From the NCBI GenBank assembly GCA_019119685.1, contig DWWN01000032.1:1-64000 (forward strand): a DNA stretch of 64,000 bases. Reading direction: 5' to 3'. The stretch comes from Candidatus Faecalibacterium faecigallinarum. GTDB lineage: Bacteria > Bacillota > Clostridia > Oscillospirales > Ruminococcaceae. A program made the translations under genes and the position numbers. Below the pieces are notes generated by a model, which had not been told where the DNA came from, did not search any database, and saw only the letters and a program-made list of their open reading frames with translations. This document shows, in pieces, positions 28,170 through 35,064 of the stretch (within the stretch, counting starts at the first letter, position 1; each line of letters starts with the position of its first letter).

Positions 28170-29681
28170 TTATTCTTCAGGCGGCGGGGCCTTCATGGTG
28201 AACCAGAACACCGAACCCTGGCCGGGGGTGCTCTGGACGCCGAACCGGAACCCGTGCTGCTGGAAGATCGCTTTGGTGATGGACAGCCCCAGCCCCGTGC
28301 CCGCCTTGCCGGCGTCGGAGCGGGAGCGGTAATACCGCTCGAAGATATAGGGCAGGTCCTCGGCGGCGATGCCGGGGCCGTGGTCCTCCACTTCCACCCG
28401 CACCCCCTCGCCGCAGGGCTCGGCCCGCAGGATGAACACCCCGTCGGGGCCGATGTGGTGCATGGCGTTGCCCAAGAGGTTGTGCAGGGCGCGCTCGATC
28501 ATGGCGGGGTCGGCGTAGACTTCCAGGGGCTGGTCGGGGATCTCCAGCTTGAGGGTCCAGCCGTTCTGGGCGCAGACGGCGTCGTACCGCTCGCTGACCT
28601 CGTCGCACAGCTGGCCCATGTCGAAGCGGACCGGCTCGCACTTGTCCGCGCCGCTGGTCACTTTGCTCAGCTCCATCACGCTGGACACAAGGGCGGTCAG
28701 GCGGTCGGCCTCGTCCACGATGATGTTCAGCTGTTCGTCCCGGTGGGCCTTGTCGTCCCCGGTGATGTCCCGCACCGTCTCGGCGTACCCCTTGATAAGG
28801 GTGAGGGGGGTGCGCAGGTCGTGGGAGACGTTGGCCAGCAGGTCCCGCTGCATCTGGGCCGAGCGCTGGACCTCCTTGGCCATCTGGTTGAAATCTTCGG
28901 CCAGGGCGCCCAGCTCGTCCCGGCGGTTGGCATCGACCCGGACGGCGTAGTTGCCCCGCGCCATCTGGCGGGCCGCCGCCGACATATCCCGCAGCGGCCG
29001 GGTGAACCACTGGCTGAACAGCCAGGCCGCCGCCAGCGCAAAGGCGAACACCAGCACCGCGGCCATGGGCAGCATATCGCTCAGCACCTGGCCGGCCTCG
29101 GCCACATGGACCAGGCTGGTGGACACCAGCACCGAGTAGGCCCCGTCCCGGCTCATCCGGCCCACCACCACCTGGGAGGAGCCGCCGCTGGTGTTCAGCA
29201 CCTGCATCCAGCTGCCGTTGGCCCGGCAGGCCCGGCGCATCTCGATGACGGTGGACTTGTCCCACGAAAACCCGCTGTCCGACCGGGCCGAAAGGGTGCT
29301 GTTGTGCAGCAGGCAGGGATAGAGGTTTTCAATGGTGATGATGCTGCGCAGGGTGGAGTCGGAGATGTCCACGCAGAAGTTGGTCAGCTGGGTGTTGGCC
29401 GAAAGGTTCTCGTACAGCCTGGTGCGGAAGGTGCTGTCCACCACCAGCACCCCGAAATTCCAGCTGGAAATGACGATGCCCTCGTCCTGGCTCTTGGCGA
29501 TCAGGTCCACGATCTGGTCGGCCTGGCCGGCCAGCTGGGCCTCGATGCGCTGGTTGTACAGCGGCTCCAGCAGCTGGGTGGACAAAAACCAGTACATACC
29601 CAGCAAAAGCAGGCAGATGGACGCCAGGAACAGCATCAGCTGGGCGCGGATGCCCGGCGAAGGGCGGCCTTGCAGCTTCAT
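28170..29681 (-). CDS. Two-component sensor histidine kinase
   Basis: 503 residues. Membrane helix 1 is at about 12-33, an extracytoplasmic sensor domain of about 170 residues at 34-201, helix 2 at 202-224, and HAMP at 225-277. HisKA has NVSHDLRTPLT with phospho-acceptor His287, and HATPase has an N-box HNLLGNAMHH, G1 EDHGPGI, F-box YIFERYY and G2 GTGLGLS. His replaces one usual Asn-box neighbour but the catalytic Asn is kept. It follows the response regulator by 12 bases. Confidence 0.93.
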   Translation of the reverse strand: MKLQGRPSPGIRAQLMLFLASICLLLLGMYWFLSTQLLEPLYNQRIEAQLAGQADQIVDLIAKSQDEGIVISSWNFGVLVVDSTFRTRLYENLSANTQLTNFCVDISDSTLRSIITIENLYPCLLHNSTLSARSDSGFSWDKSTVIEMRRACRANGSWMQVLNTSGGSSQVVVGRMSRDGAYSVLVSTSLVHVAEAGQVLSDMLPMAAVLVFAFALAAAWLFSQWFTRPLRDMSAAARQMARGNYAVRVDANRRDELGALAEDFNQMAKEVQRSAQMQRDLLANVSHDLRTPLTLIKGYAETVRDITGDDKAHRDEQLNIIVDEADRLTALVSSVMELSKVTSGADKCEPVRFDMGQLCDEVSERYDAVCAQNGWTLKLEIPDQPLEVYADPAMIERALHNLLGNAMHHIGPDGVFILRAEPCGEGVRVEVEDHGPGIAAEDLPYIFERYYRSRSDAGKAGTGLGLSITKAIFQQHGFRFGVQSTPGQGSVFWFTMKAPPPEE

Positions 29682-29693
29682 ACCGCGCCCCCG

Positions 29694-30380
29694 TTACCGG
29701 CGGGCGTCGGGGTCGAACTTGTAGCCGATGCCCCACACCGTGACGATGTAGCTGCGGCAGGCGCCCAGGTGGCCCCGCAGCATCTTGACGTGGGTGTCCA
29801 CCGTGCGGTCCTCGCCGAAGTAGTCGTAGTTCCACACCTTCTGCAGGATCTTTTCCCGCGACAGGGCGATGCCCTTGTTGGACGCCAGGAACACCAGCAG
29901 GTCGAACTCCTTGGGGGTGAGGCTGACTTCCTCGCCGCTGACCTTGACGGTGTGGCTGGCCGTGTCGATGGACAGTTCCCCGAACGTCATCACCGAGGCG
30001 GCGGTGTCGGTGCGGGCCAGGGTGCGGTTGAGCACCGCCTTGACCCGGGCCACCAGCTCCCGGGGGGAGAAGGGCTTGACCACATAGTCGTCGGCGCCGG
30101 CTTCCAGGCCGGCCAGCTTGTCGTATTCCTCGCCGCGGGCGGTCAGGATGATGACCGGGGTGTTGATGTGGCGGCTGCGCATCTCCCGCAGGCAGGTCAT
30201 GCCGTCCATAAAGGGCATCATCAGGTCCAGGATGACCAGATCGAAGCCGGCGCTTGTCACCTGCGCCAGCGCCGCCGAGCCGTCGGCGGCTTCCTCACAG
30301 GTATAGCCCGCATACTGCAGATGTTCCCGGATCAGCTCCCGGATGCGGGGTTCGTCATCGACGATCAATATCTTTGCCAT
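29694..30380 (-). CDS. OmpR-family response regulator
   Basis: 228 residues. Receiver domain with Asp9/Asp10, phosphorylation site Asp52 (LVILDLMMP) and Lys102 (VVKPFSP). The C-terminal winged helix includes LTPKEFDLLVFLASN and VDTHVKMLRGHL. ATG 30380 gives the family N-terminus MAKILIVDDEPRIREL; an ATG at 30398 is the alternative. It heads the operon with the kinase, pectinesterase and 54-residue peptide. TTCAC repeats with 10-11 base spacing upstream suggest it controls its own promoter. Confidence 0.93.
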   Translation of the reverse strand: MAKILIVDDEPRIRELIREHLQYAGYTCEEAADGSAALAQVTSAGFDLVILDLMMPFMDGMTCLREMRSRHINTPVIILTARGEEYDKLAGLEAGADDYVVKPFSPRELVARVKAVLNRTLARTDTAASVMTFGELSIDTASHTVKVSGEEVSLTPKEFDLLVFLASNKGIALSREKILQKVWNYDYFGEDRTVDTHVKMLRGHLGACRSYIVTVWGIGYKFDPDARR

Positions 30381-30473
30381 AGGGCGGGGGTCCTCCATTT
30401 CTTCTATTCAAAAGGCTGACGGTGCAGCCATACTGCCACCAAATACAGGATACCTCTATAATAATACGGAAAA

Positions 30474-30553: not shown

Positions 30554-30618
30554 GGGAACTGCAAGGCGCCGCCGCGCGGCGCTTCCACAACCCCACAAAC
30601 CAGAAAGGATATCTGCCC

Positions 30619-31905
30619 ATGCGTTTGGGATTGACAGAACTGCTCTTGATCGTTATCATCGCCCTGCTGGCCCTGGGGCCGGGAGTGTCCCGGTGGCTGA
30701 ACCGGTGGTCCCGGCAGGCCAAAGCCAGCCGTGCCGCCGAGGCCCGCCGCCGTGCCGCCTGGGAGGCCGAGCGCAAAGCCCGGCGGGACTTCATCCTCCA
30801 CCGCTTCCAGATCGTGGCGGCGGTGTTCGCCGCAGCGACGGCGGCGGCCCTGGTCTACACCCTGGGCCTGCGCCCCATCGAGGCCGCGCCCCAGAGCTAC
30901 ACCGTCCCCGCCGCGGCCAGCCAGACCGCGGCCCAGACCATCGAGGGCACGGCGGCTTTGCCCCTCGAAGGGTACCAGCCGCCCGACTGCATCGTGGTGC
31001 GGGACGGCTGGATCTACATGGCCGCCCGCCCGGCAGGCGGCAGCGGCAGCGCCCTGCTGCGGATGCGGGAGGACGGCAGCGCCCAGATGACGGTGCTGGC
31101 CGAGGAGGGGGTCATCACCTCCTTTGCGTTTGACCCGGCGGGGGATATCTGGTACACCCTGCTGACCGGCACGGGCGGGGCGCTGTGCCGTTTGTCCCAC
31201 GACGATTGGGGGGCGTCGGCCCAGCAGGTGGTCACCCAGATCGACGGGCGGCCCCTGGCCTACCCGGCGGCGGTGGCGGCCGGTGCCGGCGGCGAGATCT
31301 ATTTCACCGAGGCGGCGGACTTCACCTCCGGGGCCGGCAGCCTAGAGGACGCCCTCCGGGCCGAGCTGGTGGGCCACACCGCCACCGGCTGGGTCTATGT
31401 GTACGACCCGGCGGGCCGCAGCGTCCAGCGGGTGCTGGGCGGCCTGGCGGGCGCGCCGGCGCTGGCGCTCTCCCCGGACGGGGCGACCCTCTATGCCGCC
31501 GACCTGGGCAGCCGCTGCATCTGGGCGGTGGAAACTTCGGCCCGGGAGCTGACTGCCGGGGGCAAGGGCTGCACCCTGTTTGCGGGGGCGCTGCCCGGCT
31601 ACCCCGGCGCGCTGGCTGCGGACGGGGAGGGGACGGTGTATGTGGCCTACCGCTGGACGGAAGCCGGCTGGCTGGAAAGCCGCGCCCAGGACCCCGGCCT
31701 GCGCGGCGTCGCGGCCCGCCTGCCCCGCAGCGTCCAGCAGGGGCTGTTCCGCGCCGGGGAGCCTCTGGCCCAGAGTTACGCACCGGACGGCCGTCTGGAC
31801 GAGGACTATCGTTCGGCGGAGGCCGGCGGCTGGGCCCTGGCGGCCAGCGGCAACCGGCTGTACCTGCCCGGCGCCCAGGACGGGGTGAGCTACTTCGTAT
31901 TTTGA
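30619..31905 (+). CDS. TatA-like N-terminus fused to a strictosidine-synthase-like beta-propeller
   Basis: 428 residues. The N-terminus MRLGLTELLLIVIIALLALG then PG and a basic amphipathic helix (residues 22-60) copies the TatA/TatB layout (short membrane helix, LGP hinge, amphipathic helix). A second membrane helix (about 64-83) follows, then an exported propeller. The propeller has strictosidine synthase-like landmarks in order: GEIYFTEAADF (about 226-236), GWVYVYDPAGRSVQRVLGGL, ALSPDGATLYAADLGSRCIW (about 284-303) and LPGYPGALA (about 325-333). The usual domain in these proteins is a hydrolase or sugar-binding fold. ATG 30619 follows AAAGGA. A true Tat role is unproven. Confidence 0.75.
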   Translation: MRLGLTELLLIVIIALLALGPGVSRWLNRWSRQAKASRAAEARRRAAWEAERKARRDFILHRFQIVAAVFAAATAAALVYTLGLRPIEAAPQSYTVPAAASQTAAQTIEGTAALPLEGYQPPDCIVVRDGWIYMAARPAGGSGSALLRMREDGSAQMTVLAEEGVITSFAFDPAGDIWYTLLTGTGGALCRLSHDDWGASAQQVVTQIDGRPLAYPAAVAAGAGGEIYFTEAADFTSGAGSLEDALRAELVGHTATGWVYVYDPAGRSVQRVLGGLAGAPALALSPDGATLYAADLGSRCIWAVETSARELTAGGKGCTLFAGALPGYPGALAADGEGTVYVAYRWTEAGWLESRAQDPGLRGVAARLPRSVQQGLFRAGEPLAQSYAPDGRLDEDYRSAEAGGWALAASGNRLYLPGAQDGVSYFVF

Positions 31906-31924: not shown

Positions 31925-32491
31925 ATGGATATGACCGAAGAAGAAAAGAAACAGATCGCCCGGCAGGCCCGGCAGGCAGCGGTGGAGCTGCTGGCAGTGG
32001 CGAACCTGCACAAGGGGGATGTGTTCGTGGTGGGGTGCTCGTCCAGCGAGATCGTGGGCGGGCACATTGGCCACGACAGCAGCCTGGAAGCGGCCCAGGC
32101 GGTGTACGAGGGGATCGCGCCGGTGCTGGCCGAGCGGGGCATCTGGCTGGCGGCCCAGTGCTGCGAGCACCTGAACCGCGCCCTGATCCTCGAGCGGGAG
32201 GCCGCCCGCGCCTACGGCTGGGAGGAAGTCTGCGTCGTGCCCCGGCCCCACGCCGGGGGCAGCTGGGCCACCACCTGCTGGAAGCAGTTTGCCGACCCCG
32301 TGGCCGTGGAGGAGATCCGGGCCCATGCCGGGCTGGACATCGGCGGCACCCTGATCGGGATGCACCTGCGGCGGGTGGCGGTGCCGGTGCGGCTGTCGCT
32401 GGACCACATCGGCAAGGCCATCCTGCTGTGCGCCCGCACCCGCCCCAAACTGATCGGCGGCGAGCGGGCAAAATACACAGAGGAGGATTGA
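31925..32491 (+). CDS. UPF0340 (DUF436) family protein
   Basis: 188 residues, a conserved Firmicutes protein of unknown function (TIGR01440 type). Recognised by FVVGCSSSEIVGGHIGHDSS and QCCEHLNRALILE and by VVPRPHAGGSWAT. Start may be ATG 31925 or 31931. It lies 19 bases after the propeller gene and eight bases before yggS, so it is in the operon. Confidence 0.88.
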   Translation: MDMTEEEKKQIARQARQAAVELLAVANLHKGDVFVVGCSSSEIVGGHIGHDSSLEAAQAVYEGIAPVLAERGIWLAAQCCEHLNRALILEREAARAYGWEEVCVVPRPHAGGSWATTCWKQFADPVAVEEIRAHAGLDIGGTLIGMHLRRVAVPVRLSLDHIGKAILLCARTRPKLIGGERAKYTEED

Positions 32492-32499
32492 AAAGACGT

Positions 32500-33222
32500 A
32501 TGCCTGAACGGAATTCGGAACAAATGGCCGAGGCGGTGGCGGAAATCCGCCGCCGGATGGATGCGGCCGCCCGCGAGGCCGGGCGGGACCCCGCCAGCGT
32601 CCAGCTGTGCGCCGCCTGCAAGACTCACACCCCCGAGACCATCGCCCTGAGCGCCCGGCTGCCCATCGACCTGTTTGGGGAGAACCATGTGCAGGAACTG
32701 TGCGCCAATTTTGACGCCGGGGCCTACTGCAGTAAGCCGGTGCACTTCATCGGCCATCTGCAGACCAACAAGATCAAAAAGGTGCTGGGGAAGGTGAGTT
32801 TGATCCAGAGCGTGGACAGCGCCCATCTGCTGGCCGCCCTCGAAAAGGAAGCTGCCAAACTGGACATCACACAGGATATTCTACTGGAAGTAAACATTGG
32901 CGGGGAGGCCAGCAAGACCGGCGTCTCCCCCGATGAGCTGTGGGCCCTGCTGGACACGGCCGCGGCCCAGCCCCACCTGCGGGTCAAGGGCCTGATGGCC
33001 ATCCCGCCCGTCAACGACGACGACGCGGAGAACCGCGCGCTGCTGCGGCAGGTGTACAAGCTGTTCGTCCAGGCGGGGGAGCGCGGCTATGAGAACGTCC
33101 AGATGGAAACGCTGTCCATGGGGATGAGCGGCGACTTTGAAAACGCCATCCGGGAGGGGGCCACCCTGGTCCGCATCGGCACCGCCATCTACGGCGCCCG
33201 AGACTACGGCCCCAAAGTGTGA
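32500..33222 (+). CDS. YggS/YlmE-family pyridoxal-phosphate homeostasis protein
   Basis: 240 residues, a small PLP-binding protein with alanine-racemase N-terminal fold. The Lys that binds PLP is in CAACKTHTPETI; FGENHVQEL, HFIGHLQTNKIK and LSMGMSGDFENAIREGATLVRIGTAIYG (parts) are family signatures. AGGAGG lies 13 bases before the ATG, a long spacing. In most Firmicutes yggS sits near sepF/ylmG in the division cluster; here it is instead in an operon with UPF0340 and an ABC exporter. Confidence 0.93.
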   Translation: MPERNSEQMAEAVAEIRRRMDAAAREAGRDPASVQLCAACKTHTPETIALSARLPIDLFGENHVQELCANFDAGAYCSKPVHFIGHLQTNKIKKVLGKVSLIQSVDSAHLLAALEKEAAKLDITQDILLEVNIGGEASKTGVSPDELWALLDTAAAQPHLRVKGLMAIPPVNDDDAENRALLRQVYKLFVQAGERGYENVQMETLSMGMSGDFENAIREGATLVRIGTAIYGARDYGPKV

Positions 33223-33252: not shown

Positions 33253-35064
33253 ATGGTGGATTTGAACGACGTGGAAAAACCGAAGTATGGCGACCCCAAC
33301 CAGCGCCACACTTCGGCGGTCCAGCTGCTGCGGCGGTTCTGGCCGTATGAAAAGAAATACTGGCGGACCATGGTCTTTGACCTGTTCTGCGCGGCGCTGA
33401 CCTGCCTGTGCGACCTGGTGCTGCCGCTGATCCTGCGCTACATCACCAACACCGCCGTGAATGACCTCGCGGCGCTGACGGTGGGCATCGTGGTCAAGCT
33501 GGCGCTGCTGTACTTCGTGCTGCGGATCATCGACGGGCTGGCGGCCTATTATATGGCCGACATGGGCCACGTCATGGGCGTGTACATCGAGACGGATATG
33601 CGCCGGGACGCCTTTGCCCACCTGCAGCGGCTGAGCGTCGCCTATTATTCCAACAACAAGATCGGCCAGATCATGGGCCGGATCACCAACGACCTGTTCG
33701 ACGTGACCGAGTTTGCCCACCACTGCCCCGAGGAATTTTTCATCGCGGCGGTCAAGATCGTGGCCAGCTTTTTGATCCTGAGCCGGTACAGCCTGGGGCT
33801 GACCGCCCTGCTGTTCCTCTGCGTGCCGCTGATGATGGTGGTATCAGTCAAGCTGAACACCAAGCTGCGGGCCACCCAGCGGGCCCAGCGCGTGCAGGTG
33901 GGCGAGCTGAACGCCCAGATCGAGGAGAGCCTGCTGGGCGAGCGGGTGGTCAAAGCCTTCTGCGCCGAAAAGACCGAGAACGAAAAGTTCGAGGCGGGCA
34001 ACGGCACCTTCCAGCGGCTGAAAAAGAACAGCTACAAGGTGATGGCGGCCTTCCAGACTTCCACCCGGCTGTTCGACGGCCTGATGTACCTGGTCACCAT
34101 CCTGGGCGGCGGCATCTTCGTGGTCAAGGGCTGGATCACTCCCGGCGACCTGGTGGCGTACTCCCTGTACGTTTCCACCCTGATCGCCACCATCCGGCGC
34201 ATCGTCGAGTTTGCCGAGCAGTTCCAGCGGGGCATGACCGGCATCGAGCGCTTCTTTGAGATTTTGGACACCCCCATCGACATCGAGGACGCGCCCGGTG
34301 CGGTGCCCCTCAAACCGGGCCCCGGCGCCATCCGGTTCGACCATGTCAGCTTCGAGTACCCGGACGACCACAACAAGGTGCTGCGCAATGTGAGCATCGA
34401 CATCCCGGCCGGCCAGCGGCTGGCCCTGGTGGGCCCGTCGGGCGGTGGCAAGACCACCCTGTGCAACCTGATCCCCCGCTTTTACGATGTGACGGCGGGC
34501 CGCATCTTCATCGACGGGCAGGACATCCGCAAGGTGACGCTGGAAAGCCTGCGCGCCGCCATCGGCGTGGTGCAGCAGGACGTCTACCTGTTCAGCGGCA
34601 CGGTGGCCGAGAACATCGCCTACGGCAAGCCGGGGGCCACCCGGGAGGAGATCGCCGCGGCGGCCCGTCTGGCCGGGGCCGAAAAGTTCATCCTGGCTCT
34701 GAAGGACGGCTACGACACCTATGTGGGCGAGCGGGGCGTCAAGCTGTCCGGCGGCCAGAAGCAGCGGCTGAGCATTGCCCGCGTCTTTTTGAAGAACCCG
34801 CCCATCCTCATCCTGGACGAGGCCACCAGCGCCCTGGACAACGAGAGCGAGATTTTGGTGGGCCAGAGCCTGGAAAAGCTGGCCCACGGCCGCACCACCC
34901 TGACCATCGCCCACCGCCTGACCACCATCAAGGACTACGACCGCATCCTGGTCCTTGGGGAGGAGGGCATCCTCGAGGACGGCACCCACGAGCAGCTGCT
35001 GGAAAAGCACGGCGTCTACTACCGCCTGTGGAACCAGCTGCCCAGCTCGGAACTGGTGCTGTAA
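33253..35064 (+). CDS. ABC transporter, type I exporter (membrane and ATPase fused)
   Basis: 603 residues. Six membrane helices occupy about residues 30-320, then a nucleotide-binding domain with Walker A GPSGGGKTT (about 394-402), Q-loop VQQDVYLF, signature LSGGQKQR, Walker B ILILDEATSALD and the switch His in IAHRLTT. It would work as a homodimer exporting a lipid, peptide or drug; substrate unknown. The last gene of the operon starting at 30619. A hairpin just after it may end the transcript and also covers the next gene's ribosome-binding site. Confidence 0.92.
   Translation: MVDLNDVEKPKYGDPNQRHTSAVQLLRRFWPYEKKYWRTMVFDLFCAALTCLCDLVLPLILRYITNTAVNDLAALTVGIVVKLALLYFVLRIIDGLAAYYMADMGHVMGVYIETDMRRDAFAHLQRLSVAYYSNNKIGQIMGRITNDLFDVTEFAHHCPEEFFIAAVKIVASFLILSRYSLGLTALLFLCVPLMMVVSVKLNTKLRATQRAQRVQVGELNAQIEESLLGERVVKAFCAEKTENEKFEAGNGTFQRLKKNSYKVMAAFQTSTRLFDGLMYLVTILGGGIFVVKGWITPGDLVAYSLYVSTLIATIRRIVEFAEQFQRGMTGIERFFEILDTPIDIEDAPGAVPLKPGPGAIRFDHVSFEYPDDHNKVLRNVSIDIPAGQRLALVGPSGGGKTTLCNLIPRFYDVTAGRIFIDGQDIRKVTLESLRAAIGVVQQDVYLFSGTVAENIAYGKPGATREEIAAAARLAGAEKFILALKDGYDTYVGERGVKLSGGQKQRLSIARVFLKNPPILILDEATSALDNESEILVGQSLEKLAHGRTTLTIAHRLTTIKDYDRILVLGEEGILEDGTHEQLLEKHGVYYRLWNQLPSSELVL

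Follow-up and report, generated by a model that had tools for sequence, protein, structure and literature searches.

Organization of the locus

The window, i.e., the whole stretch of 64,000 nucleotides of «Candidatus Faecalibacterium faecigallinarum» that was analysed, carries on its forward strand an open reading frame of 428 residues at 30619-31905, with an ATG start, exactly where the original prediction had placed it. The protein encoded is made of a TatA/B-like module, a second membrane helix and a propeller predicted to be extracytoplasmic. Residues 1-22 (30619-30684, forward strand) correspond to a short TatA/B-type transmembrane helix and a GP hinge, with the invariant residues G4, E7, L10, I14, G20 and P21. 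They are followed by a basic, partly amphipathic helix predicted to be cytoplasmic (residues 23-57; 30685-30789, forward strand), by the second membrane helix (residues 58-83; 30790-30867, forward strand; predicted N-in/C-out) and by a beta-propeller of the SMP-30/strictosidine-synthase fold (residues 106-428; 30934-31902, forward strand). The position of the start codon is the same in all the homologues, each of which has a ribosome-binding site upstream of it, mostly of the GAAAGGA type.

The AlphaFold2 model, calculated with 30 homologues as input, has a mean pLDDT of 87.5. It comprises a helix (5-18), a break (19-22), a single long helix (23-83) and a propeller starting at about residue 106. 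The TatA plan that had been proposed for the N-terminus (short helix, G20-P21 hinge, basic helix) is thus found in the model, and so are the second membrane helix and the propeller downstream of it. It must be noted that pLDDT is 49-61 in the first 40 residues, so that the model is not a reliable guide to where the first helix lies with respect to the other parts.

The frame is the first gene of an operon whose composition, as originally described, is recovered by the domain matches: a UPF0340 (DUF436) protein as gene 2 (31925-32491, forward strand; PF04260, 1.1e-76), a YggS-type PLP-binding protein as gene 3 (32500-33222, forward strand; PF01168, 2.5e-22) and an ABC exporter with fused membrane and ATPase parts as gene 4 (33253-35064, forward strand). 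Conservation of this operon had been suggested as a check; the order propeller-DUF436-YggS is present, on one strand, at the 30 homologous loci (30/30). Outside the operon, a response regulator is encoded divergently (29694-30398, reverse strand), followed by a histidine kinase (28170-29681), and such a divergent response regulator lies upstream of the propeller operon in most genomes. The divergent intergenic region contains a candidate sigma-70-like promoter (CTGCCA-18-TATAAT, 30433-30462, forward strand; 10/12, consensus match only). A very GC-rich hairpin (GCGCCGC-CGC-GCGGCGC, 30565-30582) is present in the 5' leader, and no Rfam element was found in the operon, the region of this hairpin included.

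In other genera of the family, DUF436 and YggS are neighbours without the propeller gene at 6 of the 19 outside loci (among L105-L124). The propeller gene thus probably joined an existing pair, i.e., DUF436-YggS is probably the older association and the propeller gene a later addition.

Distribution of the fusion protein

The fusion is present in 30 of the 31 Faecalibacterium genomes, and in all those of good quality (22/22). The nearest named relatives are found in «Candidatus Faecalibacterium gallistercoris» (82% identity) and Faecalibacterium sp. An121 (73%). The search of genome contigs gave two relatives only, both from Faecalibacterium. The family was also sampled beyond these genomes: about 294 of its other genomes were searched with the profile and gave no full-length relative, and no other N-terminal TatA/B fusion was found in the sample of the order. 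Among the TatA_B_E matches listed across 120 genomes of the phylum, almost all are frames of 58-200 residues, a few being longer (239, 273 and 361). Full-text searches of open-access papers gave no report of such a fusion. It is nearly certain that the frame at 30619-31905 is a real TatA/B fusion, which on this sampling is specific to the genus Faecalibacterium.

Several candidates were discarded: (i) three candidate fused relatives in one genus of the order, where the match falls on a membrane helix at the C-terminus of a penicillin-binding-protein-like enzyme and not on an N-terminal module; (ii) a match in the family (G165), which is a true, unfused TatA with TatC downstream; (iii) other weak matches in the family, which are unrelated propellers. 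In another genus of the family, a protein (L091, 946-2457, reverse strand) associates, by eye, a TIR-like N-terminus, one membrane helix and propeller-like repeats; it is possibly a defence or signalling protein.

Relationship of the N-terminal module to TatA and TatB

Domain searches had been proposed for this region, and their outcome depends on the level considered. The window protein taken alone remains below the thresholds of the Tat families, with 10.6 bits against PF02416 (TatA_B_E; cut-off 21) and 22.4 bits over residues 3-36 against the TatB equivalog TIGR01410 (cut-off 56.5). These values would agree with an ordinary signal anchor whose TatA likeness is due to chance in a short hydrophobic segment. 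At the level of the family profile, which is thus the decisive one, the Tat likeness is clear. The 58-residue N-terminal profile was searched against every PDB chain: the top matches are E. coli TatB (3.2e-5), a second TatB sequence (8.2e-5) and TatAd (0.0023), and two more TatB proteins rank next. With hhalign, the N-terminal profile aligns to TatA and TatB of the host genus with probabilities of 97.1% and 96.5%, against 0-4.6% for five control segments, taken from the second helix of the protein itself, the histidine kinase, the ABC exporter, TatC and a pectinesterase. The TatB model is matched by all of the 23 N-termini scanned (best value 4.3e-8). When the 31 genomes are scanned in six frames with PF02416, true TatA and TatB rank first, followed mostly by residues 1-19/25 of the fusion frame; two fusion homologues are at or above the cut-off of 21, with 22.9 and about 21.1 bits.

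Moreover, 10-15 of the first 21 residues match those of the nearest TatA or TatB of the host genus, with p <=0.001 for every homologue after shuffling of the residues, thus the likeness exceeds chance. No substitution is seen at M1, G4, E7, L10, I14, G20 and P21 among the 30 homologues, the overall identity of which falls as low as 29%. Met apart, every one of these residues is encoded by at least two synonymous codons, which indicates that they are maintained by selection. E7 aligns with E8 of E. coli TatB and is Glu in 30/30 homologues; this membrane-embedded glutamate is kept everywhere, whereas the second membrane helix, of an ordinary type, varies in sequence.

The profile matches, the control segments, the genome-wide ranking and the shuffles lead us to reject the chance explanation, and no member of the family devoid of the motif was found among the 30 homologues; its probability is very small. 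An N-terminus lacking TatA similarity and acting as an ordinary anchor in all homologues had been named as the outcome contrary to the original prediction; the TatA/B signature is on the contrary present in every one of them. Homology of the N-terminal module to TatA/B is thus almost beyond doubt. The alignable residues, about 25, are too few to tell a TatA origin from a TatB origin.

Two properties of the module are less Tat-like. The second hinge proline (GPKNLP and GPDKLP in TatA and TatB) is kept in the three most divergent members (GPTVIP, GPTVIP and GPAVLP) and lost outside these deep members, which counts against a contact with the Tat translocase. The basic helix of the window protein is modestly amphipathic (moment 0.47, shuffle p ~0.1); the amphipathicity is clearer in most homologues outside its clade (0.5-0.65, p ~0.02-0.06). 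This modest value in the clade of the window, together with the sub-threshold scores of the window protein, must also be counted against such a contact.

Membrane topology

The segment between the two helices (residues 22-62) bears a net charge of +9 in the window protein. In the homologues, this linker ranges from +5 to +10 and the stretch following the second helix from −3 to +1. According to the positive-inside rule, a linker so basic is expected in the cytoplasm. The propeller would then be extracytoplasmic, and the N-terminus of the first helix would also lie outside, as it does in TatA/B.

In the clade of the window only, a twin-arginine-like string (ARRDFIL, about 30766-30798, residues 50-60) precedes the second membrane helix. 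A Tat signal peptide at this helix was considered and rejected: RRDFIL is limited to this clade, and the other clades have strings of the ER[DE] type.

Propeller domain

The sequence similarity of the propeller is with the SGL family of Pfam (PF08450, SMP-30/gluconolactonase; 6.6e-11, 42.7 bits vs. a cut-off of 26.3). The likeness to strictosidine synthase, as initially put forward, holds for the fold and not for the domain score: Str_synth (PF03088) reaches 19.7 bits, under its cut-off of 25, while the best Foldseek matches are TGW6, strictosidine synthase, bacterial lactonases, paraoxonase, DFPase and Drp35, all of them six-blade propellers.

The SGL score and these folds would both suit an enzyme, of the SMP-30/gluconolactonase or strictosidine-synthase type, that is exported and simply tethered by the membrane module. 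In the SMP-30/gluconolactonase family, the Asn of the NG motif is a metal ligand. In the alignment with the lactonase RPA3624, the position of this Asn is occupied by P280 in the window protein, and Asn is absent there from all 30 homologues (P, A, S or G). This absence favours binding over hydrolysis as the role of the propeller: judging from these residues, it probably does not work as a metal-dependent lactonase, and the enzyme explanation is improbable, though less so than a chance likeness to TatA.

The host Tat machinery and a possible contact with it

tatC is present in 30 of the 31 Faecalibacterium genomes, including all 22 good ones. In E. coli, E8 of TatB and the equivalent residue of TatA bind a polar cluster of TatC formed by M205, T208 and Q215 (PMC5201420), and the contact of TatB E8 with T208 and Q215 is confirmed by a structure (PMC13323110). 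The TatC of the host has Thr and Gln aligned to T208 and Q215, M205 being replaced. E7 of the fusion aligns to E8, and a receptor site for such a helix is thus present in the host.

In eight genomes, the three most divergent among them, a distance of 4-11 kb separates the fusion operon from tatABC. The two operons are convergent there, and the gene between them is, by eye, a ROK-like sugar kinase. Such a linkage is lacking in the genome of the window, where the two operons belong to separate contigs, and in several complete genomes, where a long distance separates them; this counts against a Tat contact. In one genome, a protein with a twin-arginine signal (SRRSFLK; L071, 13857-14498, forward strand) is encoded beside tatABC, suggesting that the Tat system has substrates.

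The homology to TatA/B, the retained invariant residues, the receptor residues of TatC and the linkage with tatABC together form the basis for proposing that the N-terminal module contacts the Tat translocase, a plausible proposal whose chances we place slightly below balance. In detail, the first helix would have its N-terminus outside and the basic helix would lie at the cytoplasmic face; the second helix would return the chain outward, bringing the six-blade propeller to the outer (trans) face. The first helix may then dock on the host TatC, at the site used by TatB/TatA, the invariant E7 replacing E8 of TatB, or alternatively join the pool of TatA. Kept in this way at the translocase exit, the propeller could be a binding platform for emerging substrates, for the cell wall or for a partner protein. 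The targeting of the propeller to a membrane complex, as initially suggested, is thereby plausible, this complex being possibly Tat, via TatC.

The module may instead derive from TatA/TatB and be today an anchor or oligomerisation device only (a two-helix hairpin), free of any contact with the translocase. Such a relic would suit a gene located outside the tat operon, which in itself counts against a contact, and heading an operon whose other genes are unrelated. A further point against contact is that DUF436 and YggS are not known to be connected with Tat and make up an older association, which other genera have without the propeller gene. Moreover, the second, ordinary membrane helix is already enough to export the propeller. 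On the other hand, a plain anchor needs neither an invariant glutamate in its first helix nor the invariant G4 and G20-P21 of the 30 homologues. This relic anchor deserves serious consideration, while being somewhat less probable than the contact with Tat. The good genomes also encode TatA, TatB and TatC as separate proteins, and the presence of both a separate TatA and a separate TatB must be set against a Tat contact.

The most complete form of the proposal, i.e., a fourth Tat component in Faecalibacterium with a TatB-like helix lodged in TatC and an outer propeller acting on the folded substrates as they exit, is rather unlikely at this stage and a little less probable than the relic anchor. 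In the fusion, a known module stands in a new domain architecture; to count as a new kind of Tat component, the protein would have to be shown to contact Tat. In that case, Tat would gain a component on the trans side, where the described TatA, TatB and TatC parts offer none, and this across an abundant genus of human and animal gut commensals. The protein, found in essentially every Faecalibacterium species, may thus be an unrecognised add-on to the machine exporting folded proteins.

Comparison with known systems

The comparison with described proteins leads to three sets of likenesses and differences: (i) TatB/TatA (PF02416; E. coli TatB, PDB 2mi2 and 9dzz) share with the fusion a short N-terminal helix with a G-x-x-E-[LFI] start, a transmembrane Glu at the position of E8, the GP hinge, the basic second helix and the expected N-out topology. 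The fusion differs from them by a second membrane helix and an outer propeller of about 320 residues in place of a free cytoplasmic tail; most of its members are without the second hinge Pro, and its host keeps TatA and TatB as separate proteins. (ii) The SMP-30/gluconolactonase and strictosidine-synthase-like propellers (PF08450, PF03088) share the fold, with sequence similarity over residues 171-344. Unlike them, the fusion is membrane-anchored and is devoid of the conserved metal-ligand Asn, and its Str_synth match is below the cut-off. (iii) PknD of Mycobacterium (PDB 1rwi), a membrane sensor with an outer propeller, shares the association of a membrane helix with an extracytoplasmic propeller; the fusion contains no kinase, its cytoplasmic side being a TatA/B-like module.
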